Origin: an uncultured Colwellia sp.
Lineage (GTDB): Bacteria; Pseudomonadota; Gammaproteobacteria; Enterobacterales; Alteromonadaceae
Direction of reading: 5' to 3'
NCBI GenBank assembly: GCA_913049915.1
Contig: CAJWZC010000001.1
Coordinates: forward strand, 1-64,000
DNA length: 64,000 bases
Shown here: positions 41,960 through 52,548 of the stretch, one piece after another
How positions within the stretch are numbered: the first letter of the stretch is position 1
How the letters are laid out: each line of letters opens with the position of its first letter
The notes under the pieces: generated by a model
What the model saw: the letters and a program-made list of their open reading frames with translations, nothing else
What the model was told of the DNA's origin: nothing
Database searches by the model: none
Made by a program: the position numbers and the translations under genes

Positions 41960-42808
41960 CTATATTTCTTTATAACCTAATAAGGGCAGGGTATCAAAAA
42001 AGCGTAATTGGTAATCGGTTTCTTGATTATCGGCTTTAGTTCTCAAAGATAAAGCAATACGGTGTTCTTGGTTTTTATCAATGGCTGCTGTTGGGTAAAT
42101 TAACCAGCTCCGCCAAATTGTGGGTTCATCAACTCTATGCTGGGCAAAGCTTAAGCTAATATCCTGCTTGATGGTAAACAAGTCTTTATGTTTATAGCTT
42201 TTATCGTTGATATTGAAGCTAAAGTCGGTAAGCGGTATTGCTAAACCTAACCCCCAGGCTTTGATATAGGATTCTTTTAAGGTCCAATAATCAAAAAAAC
42301 GATGTCGTTGCTCTGCTTCTGGTAGGGCGAAAAGCTCAGTACTTTCTTTTGGTGAAAAATAACGTTCAGCAATAGCTAATACATCATTACTTCGGCCAGT
42401 ATTCTCTACATCACAGCCAATATCATCTTCAAGTGTTACGGCACAAATAATCAGGTTTTTAGTATGACTAATATTAAAACACAGCGGTAATGGGCAGTTA
42501 ATCACTTCAGGTTTATCTTTAGAGCCTTTTTCAAACTGCCAATTTTGCGGTGATACATCAGCGTAATAGCTTAATAAATCACGTATAAAAGCGCGAGTAA
42601 TTAAAGCATCATGCCTGTCTTTAGAGAATTTATAACGTTGTTGCTTAGTTAGCTCTGTACTAGTGAGTAATGTTGAGTAGGTTGCTAATAATTCATCATG
42701 ACCAAGCAACTCTTCTGGCTTGGTCATCCATAGATGAATTTCATTGCTAGCGAGAGTAAGCTTTTGTTTTGATCGAGTAGAAAGATCAGATTGAGTAAAA
42801 AAGGTCAT
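41960..42808 (-). CDS. pfaE: 4'-phosphopantetheinyl transferase of PUFA synthase
   Basis: CFNISHTKNLIICAVTLEDDIGCDVENTGR; FFDYWTLKESYIKAWGLGLAIPL; beside pfa cluster. Confidence 0.93.
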   Translation of the reverse strand: MTFFTQSDLSTRSKQKLTLASNEIHLWMTKPEELLGHDELLATYSTLLTSTELTKQQRYKFSKDRHDALITRAFIRDLLSYYADVSPQNWQFEKGSKDKPEVINCPLPLCFNISHTKNLIICAVTLEDDIGCDVENTGRSNDVLAIAERYFSPKESTELFALPEAEQRHRFFDYWTLKESYIKAWGLGLAIPLTDFSFNINDKSYKHKDLFTIKQDISLSFAQHRVDEPTIWRSWLIYPTAAIDKNQEHRIALSLRTKADNQETDYQLRFFDTLPLLGYKEI

Positions 42809-43184
42809 ATAAGTATCGGTAGCTTGTATTGCTTATTTAACGAGTGATTAATGTATGGTGAGACATCATTTTATCATAAAGAGTGTGAGGGTAATTTATT
42901 TTTATGAATTTTTTAAAATTATTTATTAGCAATAAAGAAGACTAGTTACTGTTAACGTCGACTATTTAGGATAAATATATTGTTATAGTATCGATATTCT
43001 TCTAACTGGTCGAATAGCTGAGATATTACCTTAGCATATAAATTAGTAATGCGTGTATCGGGTGATTGTGTTGGGTTTGAAACCTGTGTATATTAGCCGC
43101 GTTATATCGTTAATTTACCTTTTTTTAGGTTGAAATGAACGGCTAATTATTTACGAAAAGTTATTTACTTCAAATAATAAACGG

Positions 43185-44057
43185 ATGAAAATGAGTAAAC
43201 AGCCCAAAAGTACTTCCACTCAACATGCTAACGCTACTACCACACCCGAAATGCGCGCATTTATTCATGAATCTGACTTACCTACAGCTGTGCTTGCACG
43301 GTTATTAAAAATTTCAGAATCTACCGTCCGTAAATGGCGTAAACGAGAATCCCTAAGCGATGCCTCGCACGTACCTAAACAGCTAAATACCACCTTAAGT
43401 GAAGCACAAGAATATGTTGTGGTTGAGCTTCGAACACGTTTACTGCTTTCACTGGATGAATTACTTGCTGTATGTAAGCAATTTATTAATACCAATGTAT
43501 CTCGCGCAGGTTTACAGCGATGCCTGAAACGCCATGGTGTTTCTCGTTTAACTGACATGCGCAGCGATATTGAAGGTAGCGAGCAAAGTTCTGATGCCGA
43601 TGCATCACCAACAGTACGCGTAGTACTAGAAGATACCCAAGCTCATCAGCAACTCACTTCAGAACTTTCCCCCAAGGCAATGCGTGAAGTATTGAATCGC
43701 GCTAACAGCTTAAATCAAGATGAAGTGGTACAAGTAAAAGTAACCCAAATTCCAAATTTTTCAGAACATTCTAAAAGCAAGTCAAAAGAACAACAGCATA
43801 AATGCCGTTTATTAATTGCCAATGATCCAACGTCAGGTTGGGTCTATGTCGATATTTACGATGGCAATGAAAGTGAAGCCGCTAGCCGTTACATGAGCTA
43901 CGTACTCACCAAAGCTCCTTTTCATATCCGCCGAATATTAGCGGGTAATTACAATGAATTCTTAAGTCGTTTTCGTTTGTTAAATGAAAGTCCTGATGAG
44001 GCAAGTTCTACTTTCTCATCAAAAAACTTTCAAGAGACTGATACTTCAACAGAGTAG
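43185..44057 (+). CDS. pfaR: PUFA cluster regulator PfaR; transposase-derived domain architecture
   Basis: Position directly upstream of pfaA; HTH LARLLKISESTVRKWRKRESLSDASHVPKQLNTTLSEAQEYVVVELRTRLLLSLDELLAVCKQFINTNVSRAGLQRCLKRHGVSRL. Confidence 0.88.
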   Translation: MKMSKQPKSTSTQHANATTTPEMRAFIHESDLPTAVLARLLKISESTVRKWRKRESLSDASHVPKQLNTTLSEAQEYVVVELRTRLLLSLDELLAVCKQFINTNVSRAGLQRCLKRHGVSRLTDMRSDIEGSEQSSDADASPTVRVVLEDTQAHQQLTSELSPKAMREVLNRANSLNQDEVVQVKVTQIPNFSEHSKSKSKEQQHKCRLLIANDPTSGWVYVDIYDGNESEAASRYMSYVLTKAPFHIRRILAGNYNEFLSRFRLLNESPDEASSTFSSKNFQETDTSTE

Positions 44058-44145
44058 ATGCCTAAACGAATAGCGAAAATGCAACCAGCAATGCAACCGA
44101 ACAATACAAGCAGTGCAACCAAACAATAACGGTAGAGTAACCACA

Positions 44146-47100
44146 ATGACTAAAAAGCAACAACCCATAGCTAATAACCCAGTATTGAGTGAAGCAGACG
44201 AAAAAACATTTAATTCACGTCTTCAAGAATGTCCAATCGCGATTGTGGGCATGGCTTCTATTTTTGCTGATGCAAAAAACTTAGAAGATTACTGGGATAA
44301 CATTTTTGAGTCAGTTAATGGCATTAAAGATGTGCCTAAAAGTCAGTGGGATATTGATGCATATTACGATAGCGACCCGACAGTAAAAGATAAAACCTAT
44401 TGTAAACGTGGTGGCTTTTTACCTGAAATTGATTTTGACCCAATGGAATTTGGTTTACCGCCAAACATTTTAGAGTTAACTGACATTTCACAGTTGTTGT
44501 CTTTAGTGGTTGCCCGTGAAGTACTTAACGATGCCGGTATTGGTGACGGCTCTGGTTATGACCGTGACAAAGTAGGTATTACCTTAGGTGTTGGTGGCGG
44601 ACAAAAGCAAATTGCGCCATTAACGTCTCGTTTGCAAGGACCAGTACTTGAAAAAGTATTAAAAGCCTCAGGCGTTGATGCTGAAGATCGAGCGATGATC
44701 ATTGAAAAGTTTAAAAAAGCTTACATCGGCTGGGAAGAGAACTCTTTCCCTGGCATGTTAGGTAACGTTATTGCTGGTCGTATTGCGAACCGTTTTGATT
44801 TTGGTGGCACTAACTGTGTAGTTGATGCTGCCTGTGCCAGTTCATTATCAGCCATCAAACTAGCCGTTTCAGATTTATTAGAATACCGTTCAGAGGTGAT
44901 GATTTCTGGTGGTGTTTGTTGTGATAACTCACCGTTTATGTACATGTCATTTGCGAAAACGCCAGCATTTACTACTAACGATGATATCCGTCCGTTTGAT
45001 GTTGATTCAAAGGGTATGATGATTGGTGAAGGCATCGGTATGATGGCCTTTAAACGTTTGGAAGATGCTGAGCGTGATGGCGATAAAATTTATGCAGTGC
45101 TTAAAGGTATTGGTACGTCAAGCGATGGTCGTTTTAAATCTATTTACGCACCAAGACCTGACGGGCAAGCAAAAGCGTTAAAACGCGCTTATGATGATGC
45201 CGGTTTCGAACCAAAAAGTTGTGGTTTAATTGAAGCACACGGTACAGGTACTAAGGCAGGTGATGCGGCGGAATTTAGTGGTTTATTGAAACACTTTTCG
45301 CATAACAACGATGCTACTCAACATATCGCCTTGGGCTCAGTTAAGTCTCAAATTGGTCATACAAAAGCTGCCGCTGGCGCTGCAGGTATGATTAAAGCGG
45401 TACTTGCTTTACATCATAAAGTATTACCAGCAACCATTAATATTGATACGCCAAACCCGGCGCTTGATATTGAAAATAGCCCATTGTATTTAAATAATGA
45501 AACTCGTCCATGGATGCCAAGAGAAGATGGTTTACCACGTCGTGCAGGTATCAGTTCGTTTGGTTTTGGTGGTACAAATTTTCATATGGTATTAGAAGAA
45601 TACCAAGCCAAAGCTGCAGGTAAGTACCGATTAAACGCGGTACCACAAACATTATTATTTAATGCCAAAGACGAATCGACATTAATTATCTTATTAAATA
45701 ATTGGCAAAGTAAATTGAGCGTCGGCTTAGAGGAACAAGTTTTCGTTTTCAATGCTTTAGTCACTGAAAATCAGTTAAAAACCCCAGCAGCGAATGAAGC
45801 ACGTTGTGGTTTTGTTGCTAAAAATGCACTTGAAGCATTAGACATGATTAAAATGGCATTAAAGCAATTTTCTGCAAATGCGAGCAGTGACGCTTGGTCT
45901 ATCCCTACGGGACTTTATTATCGAAAATCTGCCTTAGCGACGGCCGGAAAAGTGGTTGCTCTGTTCTCAGGTCAAGGCTCTCAATATGTGAATATGGGCC
46001 GTGAATTAGCCTGTAATTTCCCAACAGTTATGCAAGCTGCTAGTGATATGGATAGTCAGTTTTCTGATGCCGGTTTACCACAGCTTTCCTCGACTAGTTA
46101 TCCAATTCCTGTTTTTAATGTCGATGCGAGAAAAGTGCAAGATGAAGCTTTACGCTTAACACAGCATGCGCAACCTGCTATTGGTAGCTTCAGTGTTGGT
46201 TTGTATAAAACCTTTACTCAAGCAGGCTTTAAAGCAGATTTCACTGCAGGTCATAGTTTTGGTGAATTAACGGCATTATGGGCAGCAGGGGTATTGTCTG
46301 AACAAGATTATATGATGCTAGCACGAAGCCGGGGTCAAGCCATGGCTAAGCCAAGCGCTGATGATAACGGAAATGATAATACTGACTTTGATGCAGGCAC
46401 CATGGTTGCCGTTGTCGGTGAGCCGACAAAAATTACTGCTGTTATTAAAGACATTAACGATATATCTATTGCTAACTATAACTCGAACAACCAAGTGGTT
46501 GTTGCCGGTGTTACCAGTCAAATTGCTATTGCTACTGAAACCTTAAAAGCACAAGGTTATAAAGTTGTACCTTTACCAGTTTCAGCTGCATTTCATACGC
46601 CATTAGTTGCTCATGCTCAGAAGCCTTTTGCTCAAGCAATTGACCGCGCCAAGTTTACTGCACCATCAATTCCTGTATTTGCCAATGGCACAGGTAAAGC
46701 GCATTCAAATAAAGCGGCTGATATTAAAAATGCGCTTAAAAAGCACATTTTAGAATCGGTTCACTTTAATAAAGAAATTGAGAATATCTACGCTGACGGT
46801 GGTCGCGTATTTGTCGAGTTTGGTCCTAAAAATGTATTAACTAAATTGGTTGATAACATTTTAGAAGACAAAAACGATGTAGTGACCATTGCTGTAAATG
46901 CTAACGCTAAAAAATCATCAGACAAACAATTGAGACAAGCGGCGGTACAACTTGCTGTATTAGGTGTTAGCTTAGATGATATTGATCCACATAATGCGGT
47001 AAAACGTCCATTAGCTGCTGTTAAAATGTCGCCATTAGCGATGAAGTTAACTGGTAAGTCTTATGTTAGTGCTAAAACTGAAAAAGCATTTGCCGATGCG

Positions 47101-50100
47101 TTAGCTGATGGCCGAGTAGTAAAACAAGCAAAAGCTACATTACCTACAGTAAACTCACCTGAACGTATTGTCGAAGTTGAAAAAATTGTAGAGAAAATTG
47201 TTGAAGTTGAAAAAATTGTATACCTGAACGCTGATGGTACTGTCTCAGATAGAATGCCTGTTAACGCACAAACGACACACGCTTTACCTGTTATTCAGCA
47301 AACTTCAAATCAGCCAAGTACGTTAGCAGCAGATATCGAACGTAGTGTTAGCCAATTTGTTGAGCATCAACAACAAGTGCTCAATGTACATGAACAGTAC
47401 ATGCAAGGGCCAAAAGCGTATGCTAAAACAGTTGATACTGTACTAATCGCAGTTTCTGAGAAGCAAGTAGATGGTGAAGTACCTGAAAGTGTTGAGCGTA
47501 CGTTGAATATGTATCACGATTTTCAATCTCAAACGTTGCGTGTTCACGAGCAATACCTAAATAATCAAAGCGATAACATGACGACTATGCTATCGGAAAA
47601 TGCGTTACCGGGACATGTGCCATCGGCTATTGTTACACCAACGGTTATTGCACAGCCTTTTATTAACCAAGCTGTACCGGTAGCTAAACCTGTAGCAGTA
47701 CCAGTAGCTAAAGCTGTATCTAAGGCTTCGGCAGTTGAGACAGTGGCAATTGTTACAGCACCTACGACACCAGTATTAGATTTAGCACGTATTCAAACCG
47801 TGATGATGGAAGTGGTCGCTGACAAAACTGGTTACCCAACTGAAATGTTAGAACTTGGCATGGATATGGAGGCTGATCTTGGTATTGACTCTATCAAACG
47901 TGTTGAAATATTAGGTTCAGTGCAAGAAATCATTAACGACTTACCTGAGCTTAACCCTGAAGATTTAGCTGAGCTACGCACTTTAGGTGAAATTGTTACT
48001 TATATGCAAAGTAAAGTCAAAGCCTTACCTACAACACAAGTAGTAACAAGTGTCGCAACACCAGTACCAACAAAATCAGCGACTGCAGCCGCAGTTATTG
48101 ACCTTGAACATATCCAAACGGTAATGATGGAAGTGGTTGCCGATAAAACAGGTTACCCAACTGAAATGCTAGAGCTTGGCATGGATATGGAAGCTGACCT
48201 TGGTATTGATTCTATCAAACGTGTTGAAATATTAGGTTCAGTGCAAGAAATCATTCAGGACTTACCAGAATTGAATCCAGAAGATTTAGCCGAGCTTCGC
48301 ACCTTAGGTGAAATAGTTACTTATATGCAGAGCAAAGTAGCTGCCTTTCCTGTAACACAAGCAGTAACACAAGTAGCAACTACAGCTGAAGTGTTAGTAG
48401 CACCTGTTGCTATTGATCTTGACCATATTCAAAATGTAATGATGGAAGTGGTTGCTGATAAAACAGGTTACCCAACTGAAATGTTAGAGCTTGGCATGGA
48501 TATGGAAGCTGACCTTGGTATTGATTCTATCAAACGTGTTGAAATCTTAGGTGCAGTGCAAGAAATAATTGAAGACTTACCTGAGCTAAACCCTGAAGAT
48601 TTAGCTGAGTTACGCACTTTAGGTGAAATAGTCAGCTACATGCAAAGCAAAGTAGACGTCGTTCCTTCAACACAAGTAGAAACTACAGCTGAAGTCTTAG
48701 TAGCGACAGTTGCTATCGATTTAGACCATATCCAAAACGTGATGATGGAAGTAGTCGCGGATAAAACTGGTTACCCTACTGAAATGCTAGAGCTTGGCAT
48801 GGATATGGAAGCTGACTTAGGTATAGATTCTATCAAACGTGTTGAAATCTTAGGTGCAGTGCAAGAAATTATTGAAGACTTACCTGAGCTTAACCCTGAA
48901 GATTTAGCTGAGTTACGTACCTTAGGTGAAATAGTTAACTACATGCAAAGCAAAGTCGAAGCCTTACCGGTAACATCAGTAGCGGCGGAAGTTACTACAC
49001 AATTACAAACAACATCAGCTCCAGTTGCCATTGACCTTGATCACATCCAAAACGTGATGATGGAAGTGGTTGCTGACAAAACAGGTTATCCACCTGAAAT
49101 GTTAGAGCTTGCTATGGATATGGAAGCTGATCTTGGTATTGATTCTATCAAACGTGTTGAAATCTTAGGTGCAGTGCAAGAAATCATTGAAGACCTACCT
49201 GAGCTTAACCCTGAAGATTTAGCTGAGTTACGTACCTTAGGTGAAATCGTTAGGTATATGCAGGGGAAAGTGCAAAGTAAAGTAGTTGCATTACCTACGG
49301 CAGAATTAGCACAGACGACAACGTCTGTAGCGGTAACTAAAACGCCAGTACCTATCGATTTAGACCATATCCAAAATGTGATGATGGAAGTGGTTGCCGA
49401 TAAAACAGGTTACCCACCAGAAATGTTAGAGCTTGCTATGGATATGGAAGCTGATTTAGGTATCGATTCTATCAAACGTGTTGAAATTTTAGGTGCGGTG
49501 CAAGAAATCATTGAAGACTTACCTGAGCTTAATCCTGAAGATTTAGCTGAGTTACGTACCTTAGGTGAAATCGTCAGGCATATGCAGGAGAAAGTGCAGA
49601 GTAAAGCTCCGCCTTTACCGCCAACTAAACCTACAACACCACCGACATCTCCATCGTCGTCAAAAACTACAGTAACAGAGAAGTCACTAACATCAACTAG
49701 CACAGCTATCGCAGACCCGGCACCGAGTGCAACTGTTGCCTTACAGGCATTGTCGTCAGTAACTAAAATAGTGCAAGACTTCAACATTAATGGTCATGCA
49801 GAGCAACCCAATGCACTTGTCGTTGATGATGGCAGTGGCGCAGCAGTAGCGGTAAGTTCAAAGTTAGTTAAAGAAGGTTGGCAAGTTACGGTATTAAAAC
49901 CTAACTGGCTTGTTGAAAGTTCGAAAAAGACTTTTAACAAAGCGGTTAAGTTAGTTGAAATAGGCAGTAACGACAAAACGGTAGATGAAGAGCAAGTAAA
50001 ACGATTACTTGAACAGCACGCACAACTTGATGCGGTTATTTACTTGCAAGCACAGAACACCACTACCAATATTGATAATATTGGTAGTATAGAATTTCCA

Positions 50101-52548
50101 GAAGCGGCGAAACAAGGTTTAATGTTAGCGTTTGTTTTAGCTAAATTATGTCAGGTTAAATCGGCTAAAGTTGCTCGCGCTTCTTTTGTTGTAGTTACCA
50201 GACAAGGTGGAACACTCGGCTTTACGAACACTGGTAGTACCGGCGAACAAAACGTTAAAGCAGACTTACACGCAGATTTAGTGCAAGGCGGTTTAGCTGG
50301 CTTAGTGAAAACCCTTTCCCATGAGTGGCGAGCACAGGTAGATACTGACCTTGGCGTATTTTGTCGTGTTATTGATTTATCAGAAAAATTAGCGGCTGAT
50401 AAAGCGGCAACAATTATCTGTGATGAATTACTTGATGTGAACACCTCACTTATTGAAGTGGCACATGATACCGATAACCTAAGTAATGATTTGGGTAAAC
50501 GTTTAACACTCGTTGGTGTAAAAACTGACAGTTATACGTTAGAGCAAAAAGTTACGTTAGATAGCGATAAGATTGACAGCAACTCTATCTTTTTAGTGAG
50601 TGGTGGTGCTAAAGGCGTTACCGCACATTGTGTTATTGAAATAGCTAAGCAACATCAAGCAAAATTCATTTTACTTGGTCGTTCACCGCTTCTCGAAAGT
50701 GAAGCTGAAAATGAAGAAGACAGAGGTACTGAGCCAAGTTGGGCCAATGGTCATCACGATGAAGTAGCGCTGAAAAAAGCTGCTATGCAGGTATTAATTG
50801 CCTCAGGTGAAAAACCAACGCCTGTTAAGGTAACGCAATTTGTTCGTCCAATTTTAGCCAATCGTGAAATTGTTCAAACGCTAACTGCTATTAAAGCGGC
50901 TGGTGGACATGCACAATACGTTGCGGCAGATGTTACTGATAGTCAAAGTGTTAGTGATGCTGTTGCTCCTGCGTTGGCTGCTCTCGCTGGCATGTCAGCA
51001 GAATCGCCATTAACCATCACGGGTATTATTCATGGTGCCGGCGTACTTGCTGATAAATTTATCGAGCAAAAAACATTAGCTGAATTTGATGCGGTTTACC
51101 GTACTAAAATTGATGGTTTATTGTCATTGTTATCGGTATGTCAGCCAGAAAATATTAAACATTTGGTCTTGTTTTCATCAGCTGCAGGTTTCTACGGCAA
51201 CCCAGGTCAGTCTGATTATTCAATCGCCAACGATATATTAAATAAAACCGCATACCGTTTTAAGGCGCAACACCCTAACGCTCAAGTATTGAGTTTCAAC
51301 TGGGGACCTTGGGATGGCGGTATGGTTACTCCTGCACTAAAACGTATGTTCAATGCGCGTGGTGTTTATATTATTCCACTTGATGCCGGCGCTAAATTAT
51401 TAGTGAGTGAGTTAAGTGCTAACACTAACCGTTGTGCGCAAATTCTTGTCGGTAATGATTTATCTAGTCCATCATCTCCAACGGCAGCAGACAACGGCCA
51501 AGAAAAGCCAGTAGAGGAGTCTTCACTAAAAAAGTCACAAGTTAGTCGCTTACTCACCATAAACAAAGCGGCGCGTGTTATTAAAACACTGCAAGCGACT
51601 AACAATACTTTTTTAGCAGACCACGTTATCGGTAAAGAACAGGTATTCCCAACAGTTTGTGCCATCACTTGGATGAGTGATGCAGCGCAAAGTGTTTATC
51701 CTGAATATGTTTATCAAGGTATAAATGATTACAAGCTATTCAAAGGAGTAACCTTTGATCAAGCAACGTTAGCTAAGAAAAAGAGCAAAGACTTTTTTAT
51801 TGATATGAAAGTTGATATAAAGATCCAAGAAGATGGTAGCAATACCTTATTGATTGATAGCCAAATATCATCAGTCAATGACGCCGGTAAAACTGTCTTT
51901 CATTACAGCGGTCAAGTTGTCTTAGTTGCGCAAGCGAGTCAGCCTATTGAGGTGATTTCAGTAATAACGAGTGAATTAGCAGATAAGTTAACGACTACAA
52001 CCGCTAGCGAAGCTAAAGCGTTATACCAAAACGGCACCTTATTTCATGGTGAAAGTTTACAAGGTATTACCCACGTTATCGAGTGTGATGAAAAGGGCTT
52101 ATTGCTAGCTTGTAAAGTACCCGAAGTAGCCCAGCAGAAGCAGGGTGATTTCCCTATTTCGACAAGTAATAACTCAGCAAGTAATATTTTCGCCAACGAT
52201 CTCGCTTATCAAGCCATGTTAGTTTGGGCAAAAAGAGAATTGGGTCTAGGTAGCTTACCGTCAAGTACGCAAGCATGGCATGTTTATGCTCAAGTTGAGC
52301 TAGGTCAACGCTTTTACTTACAGTTAACTGTTGTGCAAAGCAATGGCAAAGGTGGTAAACGTGGCAAGTTAGTCGCAGATGTCAACTTTATTAGCGAAGA
52401 TGGTTTGTTACTCGCTGAAATGAAGTCAGCAAAAGTCACCGCTAGCGTGAGTTTAAATGACCTATTTTTATCTGCAGGCTCTGTCAATAATACAGCAGCC
52501 AGTGATGTAAAAGCTGTTGAAGCGAAAACAGCAGGAATAGCTAATTAG
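44146..52548 (+). CDS. pfaA: PUFA synthase subunit PfaA (KS-AT-6xACP-KR-DH-like)
   Basis: KS DAACASSLSAIKLAV; AT FTAGHSFGELTALWAAG; six LGIDSIKRVEILG ACP motifs; KR LVSGGAKGVTAHCVIEIAKQ. ORF extends upstream to 44113 (GTG); ATG 44146 preferred. Confidence 0.97.
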   Translation: MTKKQQPIANNPVLSEADEKTFNSRLQECPIAIVGMASIFADAKNLEDYWDNIFESVNGIKDVPKSQWDIDAYYDSDPTVKDKTYCKRGGFLPEIDFDPMEFGLPPNILELTDISQLLSLVVAREVLNDAGIGDGSGYDRDKVGITLGVGGGQKQIAPLTSRLQGPVLEKVLKASGVDAEDRAMIIEKFKKAYIGWEENSFPGMLGNVIAGRIANRFDFGGTNCVVDAACASSLSAIKLAVSDLLEYRSEVMISGGVCCDNSPFMYMSFAKTPAFTTNDDIRPFDVDSKGMMIGEGIGMMAFKRLEDAERDGDKIYAVLKGIGTSSDGRFKSIYAPRPDGQAKALKRAYDDAGFEPKSCGLIEAHGTGTKAGDAAEFSGLLKHFSHNNDATQHIALGSVKSQIGHTKAAAGAAGMIKAVLALHHKVLPATINIDTPNPALDIENSPLYLNNETRPWMPREDGLPRRAGISSFGFGGTNFHMVLEEYQAKAAGKYRLNAVPQTLLFNAKDESTLIILLNNWQSKLSVGLEEQVFVFNALVTENQLKTPAANEARCGFVAKNALEALDMIKMALKQFSANASSDAWSIPTGLYYRKSALATAGKVVALFSGQGSQYVNMGRELACNFPTVMQAASDMDSQFSDAGLPQLSSTSYPIPVFNVDARKVQDEALRLTQHAQPAIGSFSVGLYKTFTQAGFKADFTAGHSFGELTALWAAGVLSEQDYMMLARSRGQAMAKPSADDNGNDNTDFDAGTMVAVVGEPTKITAVIKDINDISIANYNSNNQVVVAGVTSQIAIATETLKAQGYKVVPLPVSAAFHTPLVAHAQKPFAQAIDRAKFTAPSIPVFANGTGKAHSNKAADIKNALKKHILESVHFNKEIENIYADGGRVFVEFGPKNVLTKLVDNILEDKNDVVTIAVNANAKKSSDKQLRQAAVQLAVLGVSLDDIDPHNAVKRPLAAVKMSPLAMKLTGKSYVSAKTEKAFADALADGRVVKQAKATLPTVNSPERIVEVEKIVEKIVEVEKIVYLNADGTVSDRMPVNAQTTHALPVIQQTSNQPSTLAADIERSVSQFVEHQQQVLNVHEQYMQGPKAYAKTVDTVLIAVSEKQVDGEVPESVERTLNMYHDFQSQTLRVHEQYLNNQSDNMTTMLSENALPGHVPSAIVTPTVIAQPFINQAVPVAKPVAVPVAKAVSKASAVETVAIVTAPTTPVLDLARIQTVMMEVVADKTGYPTEMLELGMDMEADLGIDSIKRVEILGSVQEIINDLPELNPEDLAELRTLGEIVTYMQSKVKALPTTQVVTSVATPVPTKSATAAAVIDLEHIQTVMMEVVADKTGYPTEMLELGMDMEADLGIDSIKRVEILGSVQEIIQDLPELNPEDLAELRTLGEIVTYMQSKVAAFPVTQAVTQVATTAEVLVAPVAIDLDHIQNVMMEVVADKTGYPTEMLELGMDMEADLGIDSIKRVEILGAVQEIIEDLPELNPEDLAELRTLGEIVSYMQSKVDVVPSTQVETTAEVLVATVAIDLDHIQNVMMEVVADKTGYPTEMLELGMDMEADLGIDSIKRVEILGAVQEIIEDLPELNPEDLAELRTLGEIVNYMQSKVEALPVTSVAAEVTTQLQTTSAPVAIDLDHIQNVMMEVVADKTGYPPEMLELAMDMEADLGIDSIKRVEILGAVQEIIEDLPELNPEDLAELRTLGEIVRYMQGKVQSKVVALPTAELAQTTTSVAVTKTPVPIDLDHIQNVMMEVVADKTGYPPEMLELAMDMEADLGIDSIKRVEILGAVQEIIEDLPELNPEDLAELRTLGEIVRHMQEKVQSKAPPLPPTKPTTPPTSPSSSKTTVTEKSLTSTSTAIADPAPSATVALQALSSVTKIVQDFNINGHAEQPNALVVDDGSGAAVAVSSKLVKEGWQVTVLKPNWLVESSKKTFNKAVKLVEIGSNDKTVDEEQVKRLLEQHAQLDAVIYLQAQNTTTNIDNIGSIEFPEAAKQGLMLAFVLAKLCQVKSAKVARASFVVVTRQGGTLGFTNTGSTGEQNVKADLHADLVQGGLAGLVKTLSHEWRAQVDTDLGVFCRVIDLSEKLAADKAATIICDELLDVNTSLIEVAHDTDNLSNDLGKRLTLVGVKTDSYTLEQKVTLDSDKIDSNSIFLVSGGAKGVTAHCVIEIAKQHQAKFILLGRSPLLESEAENEEDRGTEPSWANGHHDEVALKKAAMQVLIASGEKPTPVKVTQFVRPILANREIVQTLTAIKAAGGHAQYVAADVTDSQSVSDAVAPALAALAGMSAESPLTITGIIHGAGVLADKFIEQKTLAEFDAVYRTKIDGLLSLLSVCQPENIKHLVLFSSAAGFYGNPGQSDYSIANDILNKTAYRFKAQHPNAQVLSFNWGPWDGGMVTPALKRMFNARGVYIIPLDAGAKLLVSELSANTNRCAQILVGNDLSSPSSPTAADNGQEKPVEESSLKKSQVSRLLTINKAARVIKTLQATNNTFLADHVIGKEQVFPTVCAITWMSDAAQSVYPEYVYQGINDYKLFKGVTFDQATLAKKKSKDFFIDMKVDIKIQEDGSNTLLIDSQISSVNDAGKTVFHYSGQVVLVAQASQPIEVISVITSELADKLTTTTASEAKALYQNGTLFHGESLQGITHVIECDEKGLLLACKVPEVAQQKQGDFPISTSNNSASNIFANDLAYQAMLVWAKRELGLGSLPSSTQAWHVYAQVELGQRFYLQLTVVQSNGKGGKRGKLVADVNFISEDGLLLAEMKSAKVTASVSLNDLFLSAGSVNNTAASDVKAVEAKTAGIAN
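47782..49620 (+). repeat. six tandem ~300-324 bp ACP-coding repeats in pfaA
   Basis: Units begin near 47782, 48103, 48418, 48721, 49036, 49360, each encoding IQxVMMEVVADKTGYPxEMLELxMDMEADLGIDSIKRVEILGxVQEII. Confidence 0.95.

Follow-up and report, generated by a model that had tools for sequence, protein, structure and literature searches.

PfaR, a catalytically dead relative of IS481 transposases, and a conserved, predicted operator-promoter block resembling insertion sequence ends upstream of the pfaR-pfaA genes

The window analysed here, a 64-kb stretch of DNA from an uncultured Colwellia sp., carries on its forward strand at 43185..44057 the gene pfaR, which its open reading frame, profile matches, orthologue alignment and phylogenetic tree identify as a dead derivative of an IS481-type transposase. 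As the preliminary description had it, the reading frame is intact at exactly these coordinates, encoding 290 amino acids with no internal stops, and it lies directly upstream of the gene for PUFA synthase subunit A (44113..52548, + strand; likely start ATG at ~44146, with an alternative GTG at 44113). We take this downstream gene to be pfaA on the strength of that description and of established knowledge of pfa clusters; by the same established knowledge, the gene at 41960..42808 on the − strand, divergent from pfaR, is presumably pfaE, encoding a phosphopantetheinyl transferase. A search of the 3.8 Mb genome returned a single copy of pfaR.

The association with pfaA extends well beyond this genome. 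In an order-level sample, pfaR matches were detected in 69 of 395 genomes, ten of which carry remote relatives that do not adjoin pfaA. Among the distinct pfaR loci, pfaA follows directly downstream on the same strand in every case (41/41), usually after a gap of 0–90 nt and in some clades with the two genes overlapping, and this position is fixed across six family codes. Thus the hallmarks of a mobile gene, several copies at varying sites, were not seen: pfaR is single-copy and occupies a fixed site next to pfaA. PfaR was not found outside the order in a class-level sample, where the matches examined were IS481 transposases or fragments of them. At two loci (L006 and L007), the beginning of the pfaR coding sequence is repeated in degenerate form just before the gene.

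Alignment of the DNA upstream of pfaR revealed one strongly conserved block, which here spans 43055–43094 and reads GTATCGGGTGATTGTGTTGGGTTTGAAACCTGTGTATATTA from 43055. Its first part, GTATCGGGTGATTGT at 43055..43069 (+ strand), resembles the left terminal inverted repeat of IS481 elements and is the predicted PfaR operator; this 15-mer has a single exact copy in the genome. Overlapping it is a deeply conserved segment, read by eye as the predicted promoter of a pfaR-pfaA operon (43066..43094, + strand), with a weak −35 box TTGTGT (43066–43071), a 17-nt spacer and the −10 box TATATT (43089–43094). A scan for strict consensus promoters did not list the TTGTGT/TATATT pair. In family f6 the block reads GTCCCA..TGATTGTATCG, and the −35/−10 spacing is the same as in the block here.

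The preliminary description had proposed that PfaR controls the pfaA promoter. A regulatory role stands, but the likely target lies upstream of pfaR rather than between pfaR and pfaA, because the gap between the two genes is mostly 0–90 nt and vanishes where they overlap. Since the conserved, predicted promoter and operator precede pfaR itself, the two genes seem to form a single autoregulated operon. Further operator-like sequences were observed at individual loci. At L016, a second perfect GTATCGGGTGATTG occurs on the − strand ~330 bp upstream of the pfaR NATTT codons; it faces pfaE, and therefore PfaR may also control pfaE there. Five loci (L029, L035 and L040–L042) have extra, weaker operator-like copies (GTCCCA...GATT) between the main site and pfaR. 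In the window, a degenerate operator-like sequence, GTATCGGTAGCTTGT, lies beside the pfaE start at 42813–42827 and is partly conserved in related genomes; it carries three mismatches, a level at which about one match per 64-kb window is expected by chance.

The NCBIfam model for IS481 transposases (NF033577) matches PfaR over residues 26–264 with E=1.7e-24 and 86.8 bits against a curated cut-off of 224, so that on this profile evidence PfaR is related to IS481 transposases and is not a member of the family by NCBI's cut-off rule. The same model matched nine of nine diverse PfaR orthologues (alignment A1). Among named elements, ISGlo3 (35% identity) and ISKpn27 (32%) come closest, over 88–94% of PfaR. 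A maximum-likelihood tree of 54 proteins groups the PfaR sequences in a single clade of one origin (support 100/100), whose placement beside ISKpn27 and L092 received only moderate support (80/78). The similarity covers both halves of the protein, in agreement with the earlier assignment of the N-terminal half to IS481-type helix-turn-helix domains: residues 12–122 (43218..43550, + strand) form a DNA-binding half with two predicted HTH segments, and residues 179–266 (43719..43982, + strand), which are homologous to the first part of the catalytic core of IS481 transposases, form a truncated RNase H-like half. Sequence searches of the PDB with PfaR gave nothing useful, and an AlphaFold model built without an alignment had a pLDDT of 41.7. 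Together, the sequence comparisons support descent of PfaR from an IS481 transposase of the ISKpn27/ISGlo3 type.

To locate the active site, the catalytic columns were set by alignment to D142, D203 and E253 of ISKpn27, and 44 PfaR orthologues were compared. Neither catalytic aspartate is retained in any of them (first 0/44, second 0/44), and the region that would hold the glutamate is missing from all 44, confirming that the protein ends before the third acidic residue. The positions of the first and second catalytic aspartates of intact IS481 transposases are occupied here by K185 (codon 43737..43739, + strand) and G254 (43944..43946, + strand), respectively, whereas D214 (43824..43826, + strand), a non-catalytic aspartate of the fold, is present in 44/44. 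The substitutions of lysine and glycine reported in the preliminary description are therefore right for this protein; what did not carry over to the orthologues is the identity of the replacing residues, which vary at both the first column (K18/Y7/N4/R3/E3/S3/M3/V2/A1) and the second (G22/R9/K5/A5/E3). The conserved feature is the loss of the catalytic aspartates and not the residue that replaces them. The closest intact IS481 controls retain the triad wherever their sequence is complete, while the two most distant controls were misaligned at the first aspartate. ISGlo3, ISKpn27 and ISRme14 are thus homologous to PfaR in the N-terminal HTHs and the first part of the DDE core, and their terminal repeats resemble the pfaR operator; but these elements have D, D and E and both ends, with relatives that are multicopy per genome, none of which is true of PfaR.

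The pfaR footprint was found before any IS481 ends were examined, and the ends were afterwards located blind by a search for inverted repeats. Their consensus is TGTCRGGTCCCGGRTGATT. A scoring matrix was built from the core positions of 30 IS481 ends, with no pfaR sites in it; a first matrix using all 21 repeat positions had been weak, because the outer TGTCRG bases are not retained in pfaR sites, and the restriction to the core was chosen after that result. The core matrix places its best match on the + strand, with a GATTG core, in 38 of the 41 pfaR loci. For the site at 43055, Monte Carlo simulation gave p=0.006 per 450 bp; when the 64-kb window was divided into 142 tiles, the best one contained this site. 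Shuffles of five footprint sequences attained the observed score in 1–12 of 20000 trials. Up to 16 of 19 bases are identical between the pfaR operator and the left end of ISGlo3. Geometry agrees as well: left ends of IS481 elements mostly lie 67–115 bp before the transposase gene in the same orientation as the pfaR sites, which in most loci precede pfaR by roughly 85–150 bp. In most elements the right end overlaps the transposase stop codon; the corresponding coding end is missing from pfaR, and the end-like site observed at this locus is a left one, upstream of the gene. The 13 pfaA clusters without detectable PfaR (families f2 and f21, L170–L182) were used for comparison. A matrix score of at least 12 was reached at 34/41 PfaR loci versus 0/13 of the PfaR-less pfa loci (1500 bp upstream), a contrast for which the Fisher value of 7e-8 overstates the evidence, because all pfaR operators share an ancestor and the 41 loci are not independent tests.

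Several observations count against the match. Position 9 of the repeat is C in 30/30 IS ends and A in most pfaR operators, and the outermost TGTCRG bases are absent from the latter. Scores fall below 10 at four f11 loci and at L034, the matrix recognised no operator site at L018 and L038, and the ends of ISKpn27, which is the named element closest to PfaR in the tree, resemble the pfaR operator less than those of ISGlo3 do. The operator could accordingly be unrelated to IS ends, its likeness to them arising by chance or convergence as a dead IS481-derived PfaR adapted to a promoter that was already present; the shortness of the conserved core, together with the deviant position 9 and the missing outer bases, speaks for such a history. 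Against it, the block is picked out at most loci, with the orientation unchanged and the position similar, by a matrix derived from blindly detected ends; shuffled sequences rarely score as well, and the block is missing from the 13 PfaR-less pfa clusters. We regard this alternative as unlikely and favour derivation of the operator from an IS481 left end.

How PfaR would act at this site is suggested by the promoter. It is common for a transposase to repress the promoter of its own gene, an effect that left-end binding can have. PfaR might likewise be an autorepressor of the operon that does not activate pfaA, a reading in keeping with an operator that overlaps the −35 region. However, the −35 box is poor, as expected of an activated promoter, and the title of Wei et al. 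2023 (Appl Environ Microbiol 89:e0002123) calls PfaR of Shewanella putrefaciens a positive transcription regulator. Autorepression therefore seems distinctly improbable to us. With an operator core centred near −40 of the predicted start and overlapping a poor −35 box, activation by PfaR of its own operon is the likeliest mode of action, and binding of PfaR to the predicted block, like activation through it, is what we infer from this arrangement.

A match to the integrase core family rve (PF00665) had been expected, and in this the expectation failed: a Pfam search of PfaR returned no rve hit and only sub-threshold HTH hits. On these results alone PfaR could pass for an ordinary HTH regulator, with a coincidental likeness to an integrase core in its C-terminal half. 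The proposed correspondence of that half to the start of the DDE core was nevertheless borne out when the PfaR C-terminal half alone was compared, profile to profile, with intact IS481 cores (probability 98.8%, E=1.1e-16, 79 columns). Because this half matches on its own, the integrase-like part of PfaR is real, and with similarity spanning both halves a chance resemblance is very hard to credit.

Descent from a transposase gene raises the question of whether pfaR is still maintained. Pairwise dN/dS for the whole gene was 0.07–0.13, indicating strong purifying selection; by part, values were 0.015–0.06 between congeners for the DNA-binding half and 0.09–0.19 for the truncated core. Although PfaR is truncated and its active site dead, the idea that pfaR is a decaying, functionless IS481 remnant is scarcely tenable given this dN/dS, the intact frame, the adjacency to pfaA across six family codes and the conserved promoter block. 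Synonymous divergence is lower in the 3′ half of pfaR, a possible sign of an internal promoter, but this reading was set aside, as the signal differs from pair to pair and in some of them extends into pfaA.

PfaR therefore has properties expected of an exapted transposase, combining transposase descent with lost catalysis and purifying selection at a fixed locus. The non-transposing, DNA-binding role put forward in the preliminary description is accordingly favoured by IS481 descent, loss of the triad, purifying selection and linkage to pfaA, all of which point to a probable regulator, and the literature agrees.

The best explanation for these features, and in our judgement a likely one, is that the left half of an IS481 element became both the PfaR activator and its operator upstream of pfaA. 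In an ancestor of these marine Gammaproteobacteria, an ISKpn27-type element would have landed in front of pfaA. The right end of the element and the 3′ third of the transposase gene, including the catalytic glutamate, would then have been lost and both catalytic aspartates replaced, leaving a left half composed of the left terminal inverted repeat, the promoter and the transposase gene. PfaR, with its two-HTH half and truncated RNase H-like half, would bind the ancestral docking sequence, now the operator at 43055–43069, which would overlap the −35 region of the promoter driving pfaR and the abutting pfaA operon. PfaR would thereby activate the operon that encodes it, in the manner of a class II activator. 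According to this model the operator block is presumably the original left end, still where the element inserted, and not a copy acquired later.

Other dead relatives of IS481 transposases were encountered. In eight genomes of families f8 and f18 (L045–L048, L050–L053), a dead relative of 272–276 aa beginning ME/DIKLH.NATTTP adjoins, at the loci with listed ORFs, a gene for a cellobiose-type PTS EIIC and two more operon genes. These PTS-linked proteins have lost the second aspartate and the glutamate, the first aspartate being lost in 5/8 and kept in 3/8. In the tree they form a clade separate from PfaR, while the AU test neither favoured nor rejected a joint clade of dead IS481 proteins that unites them with PfaR (p=0.265). 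A search for operators resembling terminal inverted repeats at the PTS-linked genes found none, and no DNA-level match to the PTS-linked gene was found in E. coli genomes. A further dead IS481-type protein (L049:5609–6514) sits in an apparent type VI secretion cluster, judged by eye from TssK-like and FHA-like neighbours. We think it reasonably probable that the pfaR locus is a frozen IS481 left half, a module of protein plus site delivered by one insertion, and that the PTS- and T6SS-linked relatives may be further, possibly independent, domestications.

Part of this picture is not new. In the available portions of a 2016 study of Colwellia psychrerythraea 34H (PMC4744452), PfaR is predicted to be inactive and a regulator rather than a transposase, and is modelled on the DDE-type transposase MuA (4FCY), whose catalytic residues it does not conserve. 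Because those portions already call PfaR an inactive protein and a regulator, the central idea of the preliminary description was largely known; they contain neither the IS481 family, nor orthologue-wide residue counts, nor an operator derived from an IS end. In the open-access literature searched, we likewise did not find an IS481 assignment, orthologue-wide counts or an IS-end-like operator. The IS-end-like operator looks to be the new part.

For the regulator TldR, we know of no captured inverted repeat. Like PfaR, the nuclease-dead TldR is a transcription factor of bacteria that originated from an inactivated transposon protein, but it is an RNA-guided descendant of TnpB and PfaR descends from a DDE transposase (PMC13418256). 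CSB-PGBD3 is, like PfaR, a transposase-derived protein regulating nearby genes; it is eukaryotic and of piggyBac type, whereas PfaR would switch a bacterial operon from one predicted site (PMC3459987).

If this account is true, a single step can suffice to create a transcription switch in bacteria, with an insertion sequence bringing a DNA-binding protein together with its cognate site, and loss of the catalytic part would leave a regulator whose operator is already in place. For the PfaR regulator of omega-3 fatty acid synthase clusters in bacteria, it offers a testable operator and mechanism, and the operator may provide a handle for raising EPA/DHA production.
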